Assembly (NCBI GenBank): GCA_903933715.1
Contig: CAIZLD010000056.1
Location: 1-64,000 of the forward strand
DNA from: an uncultured Spartobacteria bacterium
GTDB taxonomy: Bacteria > Verrucomicrobiota > Verrucomicrobiia > Chthoniobacterales > Chthoniobacteraceae
Length of the DNA stretch: 64,000 bases
Reading direction: 5' to 3'
Each line of letters begins with the position of its first letter. Within the stretch, counting starts at the first letter, position 1. The translations under genes and the position numbers were made by a program. Shown here one piece after another: positions 20,735-39,559 of the stretch. The notes under the pieces were generated by a model, which had not been told where the DNA came from, made no database searches, and saw nothing but the letters and a program-made list of their open reading frames with translations.

Positions 20735-20811
20735 CGGGCTGTGGCTCAGCTTGGTAGAGCGCTTGCCTCGGGTGCAAGAAGTCGCAGGTTCGAATCCTGT
20801 CAGCCCGACCA
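20735..20811 (+). tRNA. tRNA-Pro (CGG)
   Basis: A 77-nt cloverleaf. The acceptor stem CGGGCTG pairs with CAGCCCG, followed by discriminator A and an encoded CCA. The D arm is GCTC/GAGC. The anticodon stem CTTGC/GCAAG encloses loop CTCGGGT, with anticodon CGG at 20769-20771. The T arm GCAGG-TTCGAAT-CCTGT has the standard TTCGAAT loop. It sits alone between two secreted-protein genes. Confidence 0.97.
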
Positions 20812-29865: not shown

Positions 29866-30264
29866 TTACCAAACGTAGGCGAGCAATTCGCCGCCGACAT
29901 TTTGTTTTTTAGCTTCGCGGCCCGTAAGAATCCCCCGGGGCGTGGAGAGGATGGAAATCCCGAGTCCGCCGAGCACGCGCGGAATTTCTTGGGAACCGAC
30001 ATAACGGCGAAGGCCGGGCTTGCTGACCCGCTTCAGACCGGTGATGGCCGGGGTGCGGTTGACAAACTTGTTCGCAATTCGAATTTCAGGGAAAGCGCCC
30101 TTGGTGTCGATTTCGTAGCCTGCGATGTACCCTTCCTGCTTGAGGATTCGGGCAATCTCGACTTTGACCTTGGAGTAAGGGGCGTTGGTTTCAGCTTTTT
30201 TCGCCACCGCGCTGTTGCGCAGACGCGTGAGGAAATCGGCAATGGGATCGGACAGTTGGCTCAT
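29866..30264 (-). CDS. rpsH: 30S ribosomal protein S8
   Basis: A 132-aa 16S-binding protein; D-P-I-A-D-F-L-T-R-L-R-N-S is the N-terminal signature and S-T-P-R-G-I-L-T-G-R-E-A the C-terminal one. It starts 8 bp after rplE; rpsN (S14), normally between rplE and rpsH, is absent. Confidence 0.97.
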   Translation of the reverse strand: MSQLSDPIADFLTRLRNSAVAKKAETNAPYSKVKVEIARILKQEGYIAGYEIDTKGAFPEIRIANKFVNRTPAITGLKRVSKPGLRRYVGSQEIPRVLGGLGISILSTPRGILTGREAKKQNVGGELLAYVW

Positions 30265-30272
30265 ATCAGTAA

Positions 30273-30848
30273 TTAGGCGGCCGCACTACCGGCAGGTTTC
30301 TTCGCCTTATCGGTGAAGGGAACCCCCAGTTCGACCAGCAACGCCTTGGCCTCTGCGTTATTCTTGGCGCTGGTAACGATTGTAATATCAAACCCGACGT
30401 TTCTTTTGATTTTGTCGAGTTCCACTTCAGGGAAAATACTCTGGTCGGTTACGCCCAGTGTATAGTTGCCCTGACCGTCAAATGCTTTGGGCGAGATGCC
30501 GCGAAAATCGCGAATCCGCGGGAGCGCGGTCTTGATGAGACGCTCCAGAAATTCATACATCCGGGCTCCACGCAGGGTGACTTTGGCGCCGATCGCCTGT
30601 TTGTCGCGCAGCTTGAAGTTGGAAATGCTCTTTTTGGCGCGGGTTTCCGAAGGTTTCTGCCCGGTGATGAGCGAAAGCTCAGCCTTGGCGTCTTCGAGAG
30701 CCTGTTTGACGTCGGAGGACGATCCAACGCAGGTGTTCACGACCACCTTTTTGATCGCTGGAATCTGATGCAGGTTCGAGTAGCCAAGCTTCTCTTTGAG
30801 CGCCGGGATGACCCGTTCCTTATAGTCTGTGTAAAATTCTACTGCCAT
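30273..30848 (-). CDS. rplE: 50S ribosomal protein L5
   Basis: A 191-aa 5S rRNA-binding protein contacting P-site tRNA. Conserved blocks are S-N-L-H-Q-I-P-A-I-K-K-V-V-V-N, T-G-Q-K-P and R-D-F-R-G-I-S-P-K-A-F-D-G-Q-G-N-Y. It has a short Lys/Ala-rich tail (K-P-A-G-S-A-A-A). Confidence 0.97.
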   Translation of the reverse strand: MAVEFYTDYKERVIPALKEKLGYSNLHQIPAIKKVVVNTCVGSSSDVKQALEDAKAELSLITGQKPSETRAKKSISNFKLRDKQAIGAKVTLRGARMYEFLERLIKTALPRIRDFRGISPKAFDGQGNYTLGVTDQSIFPEVELDKIKRNVGFDITIVTSAKNNAEAKALLVELGVPFTDKAKKPAGSAAA

Positions 30849-30860
30849 ATGCTAAATCGG

Positions 30861-31130
30861 CTAGGATGCCGCCTTCCCTTTCTTTGCCTCTTTCTTCACC
30901 TTCTCGACGACCTTTACGTTGGAAACCTGAATGGGCCCTTCGCGTTCGATGATCGCTCCCTGGGGGCGGTCCTGGGATTTGCGGGTGTGCTTTTTGATCA
31001 AGCGCACGCCTTCGACGAGCACTTGGCTTTTTTTGGAGAGAACCTGGAGGACTTTCCCGGTCGCGCCTTTATGGTTGCCGGAAATGACCTCGATTTGGTC
31101 GCCCTTCTTAACGTGAAATTTCTGGATCAT
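30861..31130 (-). CDS. rplX: 50S ribosomal protein L24
   Basis: An 89-aa assembly-initiator protein with the KOW motif ([20 protein letters not shown]). It overlaps the end of rplN by 4 bp. Confidence 0.96.
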
Positions 31131-31492
31131 AGTACTTCGGGAGCGAGTGAAACGATCTTCATGAAATTGCGTTCGCGCAGTTCGCGAGCGACGGGGCCGA
31201 AGATACGGGTGCCACGCGGATTGAGATCTTTGTCGATGATGACGATGGCGTTGTTGTCGAAGCGGAGGTACGAACCGTCTTCACGGCGCACCGGTTGCCG
31301 GGTCCTGACCACAACGGCACGGACGACGTCCCCTTTCTTGACGGTTCCACCGTGTGAGGCTTCGCGGATGTGGGCGGTGATGATGTCGCCTACGCGGGCA
31401 AATTTGGTCGGCTTGCCGATGACGCCGATCATCTTGGCCATGCGGGCGCCTGTGTTATCGGCTACGTCGATTCTGGTACGGATCTGGAGCAT
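31127..31492 (-). CDS. rplN: 50S ribosomal protein L14
   Basis: A 121-aa protein at the intersubunit bridge. It starts [28 protein letters not shown] is the conserved C-terminal block. Confidence 0.97.
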
Positions 31493-31518
31493 ATTGCTAA
31501 AGGGATGGCGAGATTACA

Positions 31519-31797
31519 CTAATGCTTAAGGATTTCAACAATCCTCCAGCATTTTAATTTGCTGATGGGACGCGTCTCCATGATGCGGACGGTATCGCCC
31601 ACTTGTGCCTTGTTTTCCTCGTCGTGAGCATGGAATTTCTTCACTTGCTTGACGATTTTGCCAAATTTGGCATGCGGCACGCGCGTTACCGTCTCGATGA
31701 CGGCTGTTTTGTTCATCTTGCTGGAAACCACCTGCCCGACGCGGGTCTTGCGCAAATTGCGGGCAGCTTGGGTCGCTTCTGTTTGATTCTCAGTCAT
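31519..31797 (-). CDS. rpsQ: 30S ribosomal protein S17
   Basis: A 92-aa OB-fold 16S-binding protein. R-K-T-R-V-G-Q-V-V-S-S-K-M-N-K-T is the N-terminal signature and G-D-T-V-R-I-M-E-T-R-P-I-S-K the C-terminal one. Confidence 0.96.
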   Translation of the reverse strand: MTENQTEATQAARNLRKTRVGQVVSSKMNKTAVIETVTRVPHAKFGKIVKQVKKFHAHDEENKAQVGDTVRIMETRPISKLKCWRIVEILKH

Positions 31798-31809
31798 TTG
31801 GCTTGTGGC

Positions 31810-32007
31810 TTAGGCCGTCTGGCCGCTGCGCTGGGATAGGACCGTTTCAACGCGGGCGATCTCGCGGCGGATCTCACGGATCTGGCTCGGTTTTTCGAGT
31901 TGACCGGTCTGCTGTTGGAGCCGGAGGTTAAAACTCTCCTGGTTGAGTTCGCGTTTGCGGGCTTGGAGCTCGTCAACGCTCAGTTCTTTGATTTCTTTGA
32001 TCTTCAT
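31810..32007 (-). CDS. rpmC: 50S ribosomal protein L29
   Basis: A 65-aa helical protein at the polypeptide exit. The typical features E-L-N-Q-E-S-F-N-L-R-L-Q-Q-Q-T-G-Q-L and R-R-E-I-A-R-V-E-T are present. Confidence 0.95.
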   Translation of the reverse strand: MKIKEIKELSVDELQARKRELNQESFNLRLQQQTGQLEKPSQIREIRREIARVETVLSQRSGQTA

Positions 32008-32017
32008 ACCAGGTAAA

Positions 32018-32449
32018 TTATGCGGCGGCGGGTGCGACGCGGTGACGGGTCAGGAATTTGGTGCGAATCGGAAGTTTCGTGGCGGCCAAGCGAAGGGATT
32101 CGCGGGCGACGGTTTCCGAAATTCCGTCCAATTCAAAAAGAATATTGCCGGGGCGAACGACAGCCACCCAGTATTCGGGCTGGCCTTTGCCTTTACCCAT
32201 TCGGGTCTCCGGCGGGCGGGCGGTCACCGATTTGTCCGGGAACACGCGGATCCAGAGTTTGCCTTTGCGTTTCATGTTGCGGGTGAGCGCAACACGGGCG
32301 GCTTCGATCTGGGTGTTGGTGATCCAGGCGCGCTCCAGGGTTTGCAGCGCGTAAGCCCCAAAATCAATGGTCACGTTGCGGGAAGCAACTCCGGTGCGGC
32401 TACCCCGCTGCGTCTTCCGGTACTTCACGCGTTTTGGCATCAATGGCAT
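32018..32449 (-). CDS. rplP: 50S ribosomal protein L16
   Basis: A 143-aa protein near the peptidyl-transferase centre and A-site tRNA. It starts [26 protein letters not shown] is the diagnostic block. A GAGGAG sequence precedes its start. It lies 40 bp after rpsC. Confidence 0.97.
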
Positions 32450-32489
32450 AGTGAGTCTCCTCTAAAAATGGGTTGCGAAAAGTTTCGGG

Positions 32490-33149
32490 TTAGGCGCTTT
32501 TCGCGGGTTGGGCTTCAACCGGCGCGGCCTCGGGCTTGCAGAGCCAAACCTTGATGCCGATTTTTCCGTAAACGGTATTGGCTTCAGAGAAGCCGTAGTC
32601 GATCGGGGTGCGCAGGGTGTGAAGCGGCACTTTCCCTTCATGATAACGCTCGGCGCGGGAGATTTCAGCCCCGCCCAAACGACCGGCGCAACGGACTTTG
32701 ATTCCCATCGCTCCGAAGTCCATGGTGGTCTGGACCGCTTTTTTCATGGCTCGGCGGAAGGAGATGCGGCGTTCGATTTGAAGGGCGATGTTTTCGGAAA
32801 CCAACTGGGCGTCGAGTTCAGGAGTCTTGATTTCCTGGATGTCGATTTTGACCTGTTTGCCACCAGACATGGTGCCGATTTCTTCGGTCATCTTCTCAAT
32901 CTCGGAACCTTTGCGGCCAATCACGATGCCGGGGCGCGCGGTGAAGATGGTGACGCGAAGGCTGTTCCAGGCGCGCTCGATCACGATCTTGGCGACAGCG
33001 GCTTGGGCCAGCTTCTTTTTGACGTGATTGCGGATTTTCAGATCCGCATGGAGGAATTCCGGGAAATCCTTCGGTGAGGCATACCACCGTGAGCGCCAGT
33101 CGCGGTTGAGGGCGAGGCGATAGCCGATTGGATTAACTTTCTGACCCAT
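32490..33149 (-). CDS. rpsC: 30S ribosomal protein S3
   Basis: A 219-aa mRNA-entry protein with helicase function. The N-terminus is [11 protein letters not shown]; the KH-2 domain has V-I-G-R-K-G-S-E-I. The Ala/Pro/Glu-rich C-terminal tail is [10 protein letters not shown]. The start is joined to the rplV stop as TAA-TTT-ATG. Confidence 0.97.
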
Positions 33150-33152
33150 AAA

Positions 33153-33548
33153 TTATTTACTCCCCTTCGTAGCTGCTTTGGCGGCGGTTTTTTTGGCGCC
33201 GCGCTTGGAAATTTCGATCTCGTCGGTCAGCACGATGCGGATGTGCGAGGAGCGCTTGAGAATCGGTCCGGCGCTGCCGCGGGCTTTGGGCTGAAACCGC
33301 TTGGCTGTCGGGCCTTCGCCCACCATCGCTTCTTTAACGACGAGGGTATCGGCACGCAAATTGGCGTTGTTCTCGGCGTTTGCGATGGCGCTTTTGAGCG
33401 TCTTTGCAACCATCACCGCGGCCTTCTTGGGGCTGAACGCGAGGAGGTCGAGAGCGCTCGCGGCCGGCAAGCCCTGGATTTCACGCGTCACTTCCCGGGC
33501 TTTGAAAGCCGAGATATGCGCATATTTGTATGTCGATAGGATCTGCAT
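33153..33548 (-). CDS. rplV: 50S ribosomal protein L22
   Basis: A 131-aa protein lining the exit tunnel. K-A-R-E-V-T-R-E-I-Q-G is near the N-terminus and the tunnel loop is R-F-Q-P-K-A-R-G-S-A-G-P. In E. coli it follows rpsS directly; here a secreted coiled-coil gene separates the two. The Lys/Ala tail ends K-A-A-T-K-G-S-K. Confidence 0.97.
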   Translation of the reverse strand: MQILSTYKYAHISAFKAREVTREIQGLPAASALDLLAFSPKKAAVMVAKTLKSAIANAENNANLRADTLVVKEAMVGEGPTAKRFQPKARGSAGPILKRSSHIRIVLTDEIEISKRGAKKTAAKAATKGSK

Positions 33549-33560
33549 GTTAGTTAAACT

Positions 33561-34355
33561 TTACTGGGTCTCCACCATCAGGCGGTCACCCACTTTAATT
33601 TTATTCTTCTCCGAATCCAGACTTTGTATCACTGCTCCGCAAATTTTTTCCCGAACGTCGACGACTCTCACGGTTCCGATGATGTGATCATCCCGAACCA
33701 CTTTGAATGGCATCCCGATCCGAACTCCCTGGCGGCTTCCCATGTTGGCGACCACTAAGGAGAGTTCCTCTTTAATGCTCACGACCATGCCGTTGGTTAG
33801 TGTTCCTTCGCCTGGCGCCTTTTTTGCGTCGGGTCCGGATTGGCTCCCCGGAATCCCGAGGGCCTCGGAGACGCTTCTCAACCGGGCTTCGAGGGCGAGC
33901 CGTGCCTGGGCGTCGTCGGTTGTCGCCACTTTAGTGTAACGCAAAACCGCCTCGCTCAACTGCACCAGTTCGTCCGCGAGCTTGTCTTTCTCGCTTTGAA
34001 CGAGTTGGAGATCGCGCACTGCCTTGAGGAGCCGTTGCTCAAGCTTCTCTTTGTCGCCGCTGAGTCCTTCGACTCCGAGCGCCGCCATTCGCTGCTTAAG
34101 CTCCGCCACCTCCCGCCGGAATACTTCGGCCTCGCTGTTGGAGACAGCCAGGCTTTCGGTGAGCGATTTGATCGCTTCTTGCGCTTCCGCCAATTGCCGC
34201 TTGAGAACTTTGTTCTCCGCCACAACCGTCGCAAGCGTCACCTTTGCTTCCGATACTTCTATGTCTGAATCTGAGAAAGAACTACCCTCAATGGCAGCCA
34301 ACCCTCTTGTTAGCGCCAGTATCACCACGCCTGCCGTTAGAGCAGGACGCAGCAT
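33561..34355 (-). CDS. secreted coiled-coil protein inserted in the S10 ribosomal operon
   Basis: A 264-aa protein that is not ribosomal. Residues 1-21 look like a signal peptide (L-R-P-A-L-T-A-G-V-V-I-L-A-L then A-A cleavage region). Residues about 38-165 are a long heptad-rich coiled coil (for example E-N-K-V-L-K-R-Q-L-A-E-A-Q-E). A linker with P-G-E-G leads to a beta-rich C-terminal domain (186-262) with N-M-G-S-R-Q-G-V-R-I-G-M-P-F-K-V and a final V-G-D-R-L-M-V. That G-x3-G-V-x2-G pattern resembles FlgT-C/MreC-like beta domains. It sits 3 bp after rpsS and 12 bp before rplV on the same strand. Function unknown; I know of no ribosomal role for such a protein. Confidence 0.85.
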   Translation of the reverse strand: MLRPALTAGVVILALTRGLAAIEGSSFSDSDIEVSEAKVTLATVVAENKVLKRQLAEAQEAIKSLTESLAVSNSEAEVFRREVAELKQRMAALGVEGLSGDKEKLEQRLLKAVRDLQLVQSEKDKLADELVQLSEAVLRYTKVATTDDAQARLALEARLRSVSEALGIPGSQSGPDAKKAPGEGTLTNGMVVSIKEELSLVVANMGSRQGVRIGMPFKVVRDDHIIGTVRVVDVREKICGAVIQSLDSEKNKIKVGDRLMVETQ

Positions 34356-34358
34356 AAA

Positions 34359-34637
34359 TTATTTGGTTACTTTGGCGGTGTGCGCCCCGTGTTTCTTGAA
34401 CACGCGGGTCGGCGAAAATTCGCCGAGCTTGTGACCGACCATGTTTTCAGTCACGAACACCGAGTTAAAAATTTTCCCGTTATGGACGAGGAACGTGTGT
34501 CCCACGAAGTCCGGCGTGATCATCGAGGCGCGCGACCAAGTCTTGATCGGCTTCTTGACTCCGGCTGCTGCCATCTTATCGATTTTCTCGAGCAGATGAA
34601 GCTCTACGTACGGCCCTTTTTTAAGTGATCTTCCCAT
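34359..34637 (-). CDS. rpsS: 30S ribosomal protein S19
   Basis: A 92-aa small-subunit head protein. It starts [28 protein letters not shown] is diagnostic. Its stop is joined to the inserted coiled-coil gene as TAA-TTT-ATG. Confidence 0.97.
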
Positions 34638-34640
34638 ATG

Positions 34641-35483
34641 CTACTTCTTCGCGTTACGGCGCTGGACAATGAAATTGCTGCTAGCCTTGTGCTTGCGGCG
34701 GGTCTTGAAGCCCTTGGCGAGCTGGCCCCACGGGCTCATCGGATGATGGCGTCCGCCACCGCCCTTGGACTTGCCTTGACCGCCACCCATCGGGTGATCG
34801 ACCGGGTTCATGACCATACCGCGGACGTGGGAGCGTTTCCCCAGCCACCGGGTGCGACCGGCTTTGCCTGCGGAGACGTTCATGTGCTCGATGTTGCCGA
34901 CCTGGCCCATCGTCGCATAGGCTTGTTCGTTGATTTTGCGAATTTCGCCGGACGGCATTTTCACCAGGGCGTAACCGGCTTCACGGTTGCTCAAAATTCC
35001 CTGTTGACCCGCGCTCCGGGCGATCTGACCGCCCTTGCCGGGGATCAGTTCGATATTGTGAATGGCGGAACCGAGCGGGATGTTCTTCAAGGGAAGCGCA
35101 TTGCCCACTTCGGGCGCGGCGTTTTCACCGGAAGAGACTTTCATCCCGACCGTCAGGCCATTGGGAGCGAGGATATAGCTCTTGACGCCATCGGTGTATT
35201 CGATAAGCGCGATGCGGGCGGTGCGATTGGGGTCGTATTCAATCCCGATCACTTCGGCCACGACGCCAAATTTGCGGCGCTTGAAATCGATGAGACGGTA
35301 CTTCTGTTTGTGACCGCCGCCGATGTGGCGCATGGTCATCCGTCCGCGGTTGTTGCGGCCGCCGGATTTTTTCAGGGTAACGACCAAGCTTTTTTCGGGC
35401 TTGGATTTGGTGATCTCCTCGAACGACGGGAGCGCTTTATAGCGCTGCGCCGGGGTTAAAGGACGGAAAGTTTTGAGTGCCAT
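34641..35483 (-). CDS. rplB: 50S ribosomal protein L2
   Basis: A 280-aa essential protein of subunit association and the peptidyl-transferase region. The C-terminal signature [14 protein letters not shown] contains the functional His. N-terminal S-G-G-R-N-N-R-G-R is conserved. Confidence 0.97.
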
Positions 35484-35508
35484 AGTCGGTTTTGCTCAGG
35501 TGAAAGGC

Positions 35509-35793
35509 TTACGCCAGTTCGATTTTTTCCCCGGCTTTAAGGGTCACGATGGCTTTTTTCCAGTGGGCGGTGCGGCCCGCATCGGCGCGGCGTTCGCGGC
35601 GCTTCTTGCCAGCGTAGTTGCAGGTGTTAACGGCGGTTACCGTTTTGCCGAAAAGCTTCTCGATGGCGTGCTTGATCTGGATCTTGTTCGCTTTCGGGGA
35701 AACCCGGAAAACGTACTTGCCGAGGCTGTCGCCGAGGATGGTTGCCTTTTCGGTAAAGGCGATGGTCTGAATCAAATCGTGCGGATCGTTCAT
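35509..35793 (-). CDS. rplW: 50S ribosomal protein L23
   Basis: A 94-aa exit-site protein that docks trigger factor and SRP. Conserved blocks are Y-V-F-R-V-S-P-K-A-N-K-I-Q-I-K-H-A-I-E and V-N-T-C-N-Y-A-G-K-K-R. It overlaps rplD by 4 bp. Confidence 0.96.
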   Translation of the reverse strand: MNDPHDLIQTIAFTEKATILGDSLGKYVFRVSPKANKIQIKHAIEKLFGKTVTAVNTCNYAGKKRRERRADAGRTAHWKKAIVTLKAGEKIELA

Positions 35794-36401
35794 TTCTGCG
35801 TCCTTTCTGCCAGTTTGCTCAACGCGTCTTTGGTGATGACGATCTTCTTGTAGGCGAGAAGGTCTTCGGTGTTCACGTCAGCCGCCGTGACGAGGCGGGT
35901 CGGTTGAACATTGCGCGCGGACATAAATGTGGTTTCGTCGAAGTCGGTGGAGACGATGAGCGTTTTTTCGACGCCGACGTTTTCCTTGACCCAGCCGACG
36001 AAGGCTTTGGTTTTCGGGGTGAGAATCGCAAAATTCTCGATCACCAGAACGTCTCCGGCAACGATGCGGGAGCTCAAGGCCTTGCGAAGGGCCAGCCGGC
36101 GAACCGACTTGGTGACTTTCTTGGAGTAATCGCGGGGCTTGGGTCCGAAAACCACACCGCCGCCGGTCCAGACGACCGAAGATTTGTAGCCGGCGCGGGC
36201 CCGTCCGGTGCCCTTTTGGCGCCAGGGTTTGGAGCCGGAAAGATTGACGTCCGCTTTGGATTTTGTGCAGGCGGTGCCGCTGCGGCGAGCCGCACGCATG
36301 GCCACGACCACGTCGTGAACGGCCTGGGTGCCGATGCCGTTTTCGATGACGACCAGATTGGCCGCCTTTGCTGCTTCAACTGAAAGAACGGTTGCGCTCA
36401 T
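35790..36401 (-). CDS. rplD: 50S ribosomal protein L4
   Basis: A 203-aa exit-tunnel protein; in E. coli it also represses the S10 operon. W-R-Q-K-G-T-G-R-A-R-A-G is the rRNA-binding loop and F-G-P-K-P-R-D-Y is conserved. It overlaps rplC by 1 bp (TAATG). Confidence 0.97.
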   Translation of the reverse strand: MSATVLSVEAAKAANLVVIENGIGTQAVHDVVVAMRAARRSGTACTKSKADVNLSGSKPWRQKGTGRARAGYKSSVVWTGGGVVFGPKPRDYSKKVTKSVRRLALRKALSSRIVAGDVLVIENFAILTPKTKAFVGWVKENVGVEKTLIVSTDFDETTFMSARNVQPTRLVTAADVNTEDLLAYKKIVITKDALSKLAERTQK

Positions 36402-37051
36402 TACTTAACCTCCGCGGGAAGTGGGGATTTTTTGGCCGGACGAACAACGACATAGCCGCCGTTGGCTCCGGGGATTGCGCCGCGAATCAAGAGAACCTGT
36501 TCGGCATCGCGCACTTGGACAATTTGGAGATTTTGAACGGTGATCCGCTCATCGCCCATGTGACCGGGCATGCCATGGTTCTTCCAGACACGGCCTGGGG
36601 TGGAACGGCACCCGACTGCACCGGTGCGACGATGCATCATCGAACCGTGGGACATTGGTTGACGGGAGTAACCATGCCTTTTAATAGCACCTTGGAAACC
36701 TTTACCCTTGGACTGCCCAATGACGTCAACGATCTGACCGGCTTGGAAATGGTTGGCGCTCAGGTTCAGTTCACCTTCCACTTTATCAGTGGCAGCGAGG
36801 CGGAATTCGCCCACGAGTCTTTTCGGTTCGGAGCCGACCTTTTTACAGACGCCCACCTCTGCCTTCGACAAACGCGACTCCTTTTGGGTGTCGAAGCCGA
36901 CTTGAATGGCCGAGTAGCCGTCTTTTTCAACGGTCTTGACCTGGAGCAGCGTATTGCCGCCCACGGCGACGACGGTCACGGGGATAATGCGCCCCTTCTC
37001 GTCGTACACTCGGGTCATCCCGATTTTTTTTCCTAACAGTCCGTATTTCAT
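36401..37051 (-). CDS. rplC: 50S ribosomal protein L3
   Basis: A 216-aa early-assembly protein. G-K-K-I-G-M-T-R-V is at the N-terminus; the loop K-G-K-G-F-Q-G-A-I-K-R-H and R-R-T-G-A-V-G are diagnostic. Confidence 0.97.
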   Translation of the reverse strand: MKYGLLGKKIGMTRVYDEKGRIIPVTVVAVGGNTLLQVKTVEKDGYSAIQVGFDTQKESRLSKAEVGVCKKVGSEPKRLVGEFRLAATDKVEGELNLSANHFQAGQIVDVIGQSKGKGFQGAIKRHGYSRQPMSHGSMMHRRTGAVGCRSTPGRVWKNHGMPGHMGDERITVQNLQIVQVRDAEQVLLIRGAIPGANGGYVVVRPAKKSPLPAEVK

Positions 37052-37076
37052 TGCGTTCCTAGTTCATGAACACCGA

Positions 37077-37388
37077 TCAGATCTTGATGGTAATATCAAC
37101 ACCCGCCGGGAGGTTCAGCTTCTTGAGTTCGTCCACCGTCTTCGCGGTCGGTTCGATGATGTCCAGCAACCGTTTATGGGTGCGGATTTCGAACTGTTCC
37201 ATGGATTTTTTATCCACGTGCGGAGAACGGTTAACAGTGAATTTTTCGATCCGGGTAGGGAGCGGGATCGGTCCAGCCACTTTCGCGCCGGTGCGCTTGG
37301 CGGTTTCGACGATGTCCATTGAGGATTGATCGAGCATTCGGTAATCGAAGGCTTTAAGCCGGATGCGAATTCGTTGGCCGTTTGTCAT
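37077..37388 (-). CDS. rpsJ: 30S ribosomal protein S10
   Basis: A 103-aa protein, also the NusE antitermination factor. [10 protein letters not shown] is at the start and G-P-I-P-L-P-T-R in the middle. It follows fusA by 17 bp, so the usual tuf gene between them is missing here. Confidence 0.97.
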
Positions 37389-37405
37389 ACTAAAATTGAG
37401 TTAAA

Positions 37406-39559
37406 TTAAGAACCTTTCTGGTCGAGGACCGCCGCAAGGACGCTTGCGGGAACCTGCTCAAAGTGGGAGGGCTCCATGGAGTAGGAAGAACGCCCACGGG
37501 AAAGCGACCGGATGGCCGTGGAGTAACCGAACATTTCGGCGAGCGGCACTTCGGCATGAACGGCCGAGAGGTTGCCTTTCGCTTCCATGCTCTGGATGCG
37601 TCCGCGACGGCGGTTGAGATCGCCGAGAATGTCGCCCTGATATTCTTCAGGAGTGAGGTTCTCAACTTTCATGATCGGTTCGAGCAGAATCGCCTTGGCT
37701 TTCTTGAACCCGTCTTTGGCAGCGAAGATGGCCGCCATTTTGAACGCCATTTCGTTGGAATCGACTTCGTGGAACGATCCGTCGATGATGTCGATGTTGA
37801 CGTCAATGACCGGGTAGCCGCCGACCACGCCGTTGAGGACGGCCTCTTCGAGACCTTTCTTGACGGCCGGGATGAAATCTTTCGGGATCGAGCCGCCCAC
37901 GGTTTTGTTCTCGATGGTGATGCCTTTGCCGCGCTCGTTGGGTTTGACCCTGACGACAACGTGACCGTATTGACCGCGACCGCCGGACTGTTTGACCAGC
38001 TTGCCTTCGCCGACGGATTCGCCGGTGATGGTTTCGCGGTAGGCGATTTGCGGCTTGCCGGAATTCGCCTCGACCTTGAACTCACGAAGCATGCGGTCGC
38101 GAATGATTTCGAGATGCAGTTCGCCCATGCCGGCGATGATCGTCTGGCCGGTTTCCTCGTTGGTGTAAACGCGGAACGTCGGATCTTCTTCAGCTAGACG
38201 CTGGAGAGCGATGGACATCTTTTCCTGGTCGATCTTCGTCTTCGGCTCAACCGCCATCGAGATAACGGTATCCGGGAAGGTCGGCGGTTCGAGAAGGACC
38301 GGGTGATCTTCGTCGCAAAGCGTGTCGCCCGTGGTGATGTTTTTGATGCCGACGATGGCGGCGATGTCACCCGAGTAGCAGACGTCGATGTCTTCGCGCT
38401 TGTCAGCCTGGATCTGGATGAGGCGGCTAATGCGCTCGCGCTTATTGGTGCGAGGATTGTAAACGGTGTCGCCCTTGGCAAGTTTGCCGGAGTAAACCCG
38501 GAAGAAAACGAGCTTGCCGACGAACGGATCGCTCCAAAGCTTGAATGCCAGCGAGCAGAATTTTGCGTTATCGTCTGCGGCAACAATGATCTCTTCGCCG
38601 GTATCGGGGTTCTGGCCACGGGCCGGAATGGTCTCGAGCGGGCTGGGCAGATAATCGACCACGGCATCGACGAGGTATTGGACGCCCTTGTTCTTGAAGG
38701 CGGAACCGCCCACGACAGGAACCAGTTTGTTGGCGATGGTTTGGCGGCGAATGGCTTGCTTGAGAACTTCGACCGTGATCGGTTTTTCCTCAAGGAAGAG
38801 CATCCCGACTTCATCATCGAGATCAGCAACGGCGCTCACGAGACCTTCGTAAGCCGCATCGATCATCTCCTTGTGCTCGGCGGGAATCTCCTCAACCGAG
38901 TAGGTGGAACCCCACTGGTCGTTGTCGGAGTAAACAATCGCCTTCTTGTTGATGACGTCGAGCTGGCCCTTGAGATAATCTTCGCGGCCCAGCGGAATGA
39001 GAATCGGCCACGCATTCGCACCGAGCTTGGTGCGCATGTCGTTGACGGCGTTATCAAAGTTGGCGCCGGTGCGGTCCATCTTGTTGACGAACGCGATCCG
39101 CGGCACACCATACTTTGTAGCTTGACGCCAGACGGTTTCGGACTGGGGTTGAACCCCGGCCACACCGCAGAACACGGCAACCGCGCCGTCGAGGACACGC
39201 AAGGAGCGCTCCACTTCGGCCGTGAAGTCCACGTGCCCGGGAGTGTCGATGATGTTGACGCGCTGTTTGATGCCTTCGAAAAGTTTGACAACCCCTTCTT
39301 GCTTTGTTTGTTGCCAGAAGCAAGTGGTGGCGGCGGAAGTGATCGTGATGCCACGTTCGCGCTCCTGCTCCATCCAGTCGGTGGCGGTGGTGCCTTCATG
39401 CACTTCACCGATCTTGTGGATCATCCCTGTATAGAAAAGGATACGCTCGGTGAGGGTGGTTTTACCCGCATCGATGTGCGCGGCGATCCCGATGTTGCGG
39501 GTCCGCTCTAGAGGATAGGCCCGATCGGGCGAGTTGGGATTGGAAGCAGTTTCAGCCAC
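37406..39559 (-). CDS. fusA: elongation factor G
   Basis: A 717-aa translocation GTPase. The G1 motif is [11 protein letters not shown]2/G3 are [10 protein letters not shown] and D-T-P-G-H-V-D-F, and the G4 motif is N-K-M-D-R. Full length with all five domains. It is third in the str-type section, followed directly by rpsJ. Confidence 0.97.

Follow-up and report, generated by a model that had tools for sequence, protein, structure and literature searches.

Few stretches of gene order are as well conserved among bacteria as that of the S10 operon. Non-ribosomal genes have nevertheless long been known inside ribosomal operons, namely secY, adk, map and rpoA. Here, we describe a gene that, like these four, is a conserved non-ribosomal member of the S10-spc-alpha region; unlike them, it encodes a predicted exported protein and sits in the S10 part, next to rplV. 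It has been seen so far in one phylum, the Verrucomicrobiota, which our survey covered.

Two known families resemble the encoded 264-residue protein in part. With the C-terminal domain of FlgT (FlgT_C, PF16538), a periplasmic flagellar ring protein, it shares a small β-barrel and a motif of the type N-x-G-x-x-x-G-V-x-x-G. With MreC (PF04085) it shares a plan of anchor or signal, coiled coil and barrel; MreC has two barrels, whereas the 264-residue protein has one. A conserved PVC signature protein whose function is unassigned, CT421.2, occurs in Verrucomicrobia and Lentisphaerae as well as in Chlamydiae and Planctomycetes, and measures 53 to about 80 residues (PMC3444138). CT421.2 is too short for the signal, coil and barrel of the rplV-linked protein, and we rejected identity between the two, CT421.2 being much smaller and a different protein. 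A search of the open-access literature for the gene, or for an insertion between rpsS and rplV, found no description of either.

The gene and its neighbors

The window, by which we mean the whole 64-kb stretch of DNA that was analyzed, contains a ribosomal protein cluster in the order fusA, rpsJ, rplC, rplD, rplW, rplB, rpsS, the gene described here, rplV, rpsC and rplP, followed by rpmC, rpsQ, rplN, rplX, rplE and rpsH (Table 1). The gene has an ATG start and 264 codons and is read from 34355 to 33561 on the minus strand. An earlier note on this DNA had placed an open reading frame between rpsS and rplV, with gaps of 3 and 12 bp, and had described its product as having a signal-like N-terminus, coiled-coil helices, a β-rich C-terminus and a GSRQGVRIGMP motif. 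We confirmed the open reading frame and both gaps, and all four protein features are present, export being a prediction. By direct search, the host genome holds one copy of the gene.

Table 1. Features of the locus and of the encoded protein, in window coordinates
Feature	Coordinates	Strand	Details
Gene for predicted exported coiled-coil/barrel protein	33561..34355	-	264 aa; between rpsS and rplV
rpsS (uS19)	34359..34637	-	upstream neighbor, 3 bp from gene; Pfam S19 E=3e-36
rplV (uL22)	33153..33548	-	downstream neighbor, 12 bp from gene; Pfam L22 E=5e-36
fusA-S10-spc ribosomal protein cluster	29866..39559	-	
Signal-peptide-like N-terminus, about residues 1-22 (MLRPALTAGVVILALTRGLAAI)	34290..34355	-	hydropathy and charge check
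Helical/coiled-coil region, residues 29-165	33861..34271	-	AlphaFold model; coiled-coil Pfam/NCBIfam matches
Six-strand small β-barrel, residues about 185-262, FlgT_C/MreC-like	33570..33803	-	AlphaFold, Foldseek, Pfam

Within the genus, dN/dS of the gene is 0.10-0.16, against 0.02-0.10 for rpsS and 0.04-0.18 for rplV. The gene is under purifying selection, with values above those of rpsS and inside the range of rplV, and we therefore regard it as a functional protein gene. That the open reading frame did not arise by chance follows from these ratios, from its constant place across the order and from the restriction of the insertion to the rpsS-rplV junction. The only structured RNA found within the window was a tRNA-Pro (cgg) gene at 20735-20811.

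Conservation within the order and the class

The earlier note had suggested a conserved position between rpsS and rplV, and this was borne out far more broadly than first proposed, as the phylum-wide census below makes clear. Across the order Chthoniobacterales, 169 of 197 genomes gave a match to the gene. At whole-genome loci, rpsS and rplV flanked the gene in 49 of 49 cases, and an artefact of assembly or annotation was rejected on this basis. Named loci of the order showed the same arrangement (78 of 80, the remaining two lacking one neighbor at a contig edge), among them that of the cultured Chthoniobacter flavus Ellin428. All strong matches examined in the other orders of this class again sit between rpsS and rplV, and weak matches at other loci are paralogues. 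Placement at unrelated loci in close relatives would have spoken against a link with the ribosomal genes; we checked for it and found relocation only in one distant genus, which belongs to another class.

Two genomes of the order, each of 0.9 Mb, are without the gene. A loss of this kind suits an accessory of the envelope better than it suits a ribosome factor. The DNA left between their rpsS and rplV genes, about 313 and 148 bp long, is apparently non-coding (loci L094 and L096), and a search of both genomes for a remnant of the gene found no credible one.

A phylum-wide census and the link with rplV

For the census, 145 genomes that were at least 90% complete were drawn evenly across Verrucomicrobiota. 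In 80 of them, the gene immediately precedes rplV and is read from the same strand. Of these 80 loci, 46 have rpsS joined in an intact S10 operon and 33 are split, with the gene heading the rplV half and rpsS elsewhere; in one, rpsS was not found. The same junction recurs in other classes, in families f59, f61, f66, f69, f71, f84 and f85. In a further set of families, the S10 cluster is interrupted just past rpsS, and there the gene was found directly before rplV in 12 of the 16 genomes examined. A profile made without these split-operon members still detects 12 of 12, with E-values from 1e-7 to 4e-26. Since the gene stays with rplV when the operon splits, the link with rplV is what is conserved. 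In many genomes of other classes, the break in the cluster falls precisely at the rpsS-rplV junction, with the halves apart; this is so in 50 of the 145 census genomes (loci such as L118-L121, L127-L130, L142, L147, L148, L150, L151 and L154).

The remaining 65 census genomes have no gene beside rplV, so the gene is dispensable or replaceable. In 44 of these, rpsS and rplV are adjacent, and the gene was therefore lost, never gained, or has diverged past detection elsewhere. The junction itself stands out among S10 clusters: the spacing between rpsS and rplV exceeds 300 bp at 51 of 84 loci, a sample partly picked via the gene itself, as compared with 0 of 702 intervals at ten other S10 junctions.

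Barrel-domain distances track the distances that separate ribosomal proteins (Mantel r 0.71, 0 of 999 permutations), a correlation that fits vertical descent of the gene and makes horizontal transfer unlikely as the main mode. The place directly upstream of rplV probably dates from the common ancestor of the phylum.

Such persistence could be a matter of history. An envelope gene may have been inserted once before rplV, and its removal or movement may then have become costly as rplV translation came to depend on the abutting or overlapping gene, with no functional link between ribosome and envelope. At many loci the gene does abut or overlap rplV (gap 0 or -1), as such dependence would predict. 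The many genomes in which rpsS and rplV are contiguous without the gene make this account less likely, since the site can evidently be vacated, yet attachment to rplV persists in 33 genomes where rpsS is split off. On balance, we consider purely historical retention less likely than not, though it is the leading alternative.

Relocated copies

In most members of the distant genus with relocated copies (g140), the sole copy of the gene lies away from the ribosomal cluster. Four of nine genomes carry it directly after a gene for an AcrB-type RND permease, upstream of which are AcrA-like and MarR-like genes (L259, L261, L263 and L265); in three other genomes, an FtsH gene is close by on the opposite strand. 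AcrB and FtsH were assigned by NCBIfam, and the AcrA-like and MarR-like genes by eye. Placement in an RND efflux operon fits an envelope role, although the four copies may stem from a single event in one genus.

Architecture and predicted fold

The AlphaFold model of the 264-residue protein (pLDDT 86, pTM 0.44 for the full model) comprises helices at residues 29-92, 102-143 and 149-165, followed by six β-strands at 189-261; residues 10-16 form a low-confidence helix. Gly94, at a helix break, is invariant across the order. Most members follow the same plan of a signal or anchor, then a coiled coil, then a small β-barrel. A simple hydropathy rule, applied to 71 aligned members, found a hydrophobic N-terminal segment in 66, with an AXA-like site in 63 and a lipobox-like motif in a few; an internal control segment passed the same rule in 1 of 61 cases. 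Nearly all members are thus predicted from sequence to carry an export signal or anchor, and the protein to be exported to the periplasm.

A short form of 111-127 residues, found within families f21, f23, f40, f44, f46 and f49, consists of signal and barrel without the coiled coil, so that the barrel is the sole part retained besides the signal. AlphaFold models it as a barrel alone (pLDDT 83). At the other extreme, a 558-residue form (L069:3986-5662) has a long low-complexity insert rich in K, D, P and A ahead of its coiled coil.

Against Pfam and NCBIfam, the 264-residue protein gave generic coiled-coil matches and one weak match to FlgT_C, of 13.2 bits (E 0.13), below the Pfam cut-off of 27 bits. 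A single-sequence search of the PDB with the same protein gave nothing useful. Across the 71 members, FlgT_C was the commonest Pfam match outside coiled coils, seen in 21 with a best, still weak, E-value of 6e-5. By Foldseek, the top ranks for the full model went to an LPHT ring that includes FlgT, to MreC and to FlgT, followed by N-terminal barrels of rotary ATPases; the short model matched the same fold classes with weaker E-values. These sequence and structure matches support the proposal that the C-terminal domain is FlgT_C/MreC-like. The small barrel is a common fold class, however, and the likeness therefore shows resemblance and not function.

None of the known proteins fits as an identity. 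The matches to FlgT (8z5n and 3w1e) bear out the barrel, but the same class matches the ATPase barrels and is not specific, and the other FlgT domains are absent from the 264-residue protein. A search of the host genome for FlgI, in which positive controls were detected, found none, and a flagellar FlgT was rejected for this want of a flagellar context. MreC was matched by Foldseek (2j5u and 7eft); its Pfam profile gave no match to the 264-residue protein and weak matches in 4 of the 71 members (best 1.8e-3). A genuine, separate MreC is encoded in the same genome (C56:69333, E 3e-39), for which reason the gene was rejected as an MreC replacement; MreC was found in 13 of 13 genomes searched. 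Likewise, the 264-residue protein has no Pfam match to the periplasmic chaperone OmpH/Skp (PF03938), and identity with Skp was rejected, a separate OmpH being present at C5:33756.

The fold and the export signals also bear on two readings that tie the product more directly to the ribosome. The first is a cytosolic factor that associates with ribosomes or assists their assembly, for which position beside uL22 and uS19 is the sole support. Against it, members across the family are predicted to have export signals or anchors, a few of lipobox-like form, the closest folds include the periplasmic FlgT and MreC, many lineages are without the gene, and relocated copies adjoin genes of an RND efflux pump; a cytosolic ribosome factor is, in our judgment, highly improbable. 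The second follows the export-sensing logic known from SecM-type systems. As in a SecM/VemP-like leader, translation and export of the cistron would govern how rplV and the downstream genes are translated, and ribosomal protein synthesis would thereby respond to export capacity. A predicted exported protein is indeed encoded directly upstream of rplV, often touching it, and the conserved link is with rplV and not with rpsS. The folded barrel, however, runs to the C-terminus, the alignments show no conserved short arrest-like motif, and protein length is highly variable, which together leave a leader of this type with little probability.

Expression

Codon adaptation, relative to ribosomal genes, was 0.47 for the gene and 0.57-0.77 for the adjoining ribosomal genes and fusA, with a mean of 0.57 for the other open reading frames of the window; this comparison draws on window genes alone, and the other open reading frames were called naively. 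Over 42 loci, adaptation of the gene was again low (mean z -2.3), falling under every ribosomal gene in 26. A Shine-Dalgarno-like 4-mer precedes the start in 17 of 70 members. The claim in the earlier note that an envelope protein is expressed here at ribosomal-protein levels is thus unsupported. That codon usage is untuned for high expression counts in favor of historical retention, and low adaptation could reflect weak, even marginal, expression.

From the end of rpsS to the start of rplV, no terminator-like site was found on the strand of the gene. From short spacing alone, we infer co-transcription with rplV. The gene is probably co-transcribed with its neighbors but translated less.

A possible role in the envelope

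We lean toward a reading in which the gene encodes a barrel-headed scaffold or adaptor that is exported to the periplasm and whose supply follows the ribosomal operon. This reading builds on the observed position, homology, vertical inheritance and purifying selection of the gene, together with the predicted export and fold of its product. The protein would be vertically inherited and periplasmic. It would begin with a signal peptide, in place of which some lineages have a membrane anchor or a lipobox, continue into a coiled coil whose length varies, and end in the FlgT_C/MreC-like barrel as its functional head. It may oligomerize at the periplasmic face of the inner membrane and act there as a scaffold or adaptor, its barrel bound to a partner in the envelope. 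Because the gene lies directly upstream of rplV, it would be transcribed together with rplV-rpsC-rplP, and supply of the protein would track the growth-rate-dependent output of that operon, weaker codon usage holding its amount under the level of ribosomal proteins. Both the scaffold or adaptor role and the scaling with growth rate are what we infer from this combination.

The long-standing retention before rplV suggests an old, undescribed tie of ribosome making to envelope building, and we hypothesize that envelope growth is linked to ribosome output. In its strongest form, which we put forward tentatively and with some doubt, a phylum-wide periplasmic family at the head of rplV-rpsC-rplP would have its supply functionally tied to ribosome synthesis, so that the part of the envelope it serves would scale with the growth rate, and its export might in turn feed back on rplV translation. 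Over much of the phylum, a gene for a predicted exported protein has been retained inside or beside the S10 operon, and it stays with rplV in genomes whose operon is broken. Should this tie prove functional, it would be a case in which the coupling of envelope growth to ribosome production is open to direct test. The gene can also serve as a genomic marker at the level of the phylum, and it is a candidate for localization and deletion studies in tractable verrucomicrobia. One such species is Verrucomicrobium spinosum, for which publication of a saturated transposon library is recorded (PMC12283558).

A paralogous family

The paralogue family, represented in the host genome by a diverged member on another contig, C51 (L081:3557-4378), shares with the rplV-linked protein a membrane-anchored coiled coil and a similar C-terminal domain. 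It differs in its motif, AVNxxWNFVVLNxG, and in its place, which is not beside ribosomal genes at the loci examined. The neighbors of the host-genome paralogue (hisF, ilvC region) gave no hint of function. The family is widespread, its members having a membrane anchor, a coiled coil and a C-terminal barrel of the WNFVVLN type, and in f15 genomes the paralogue occurs as tandem pairs (for example, G227:C2:407379-408787).
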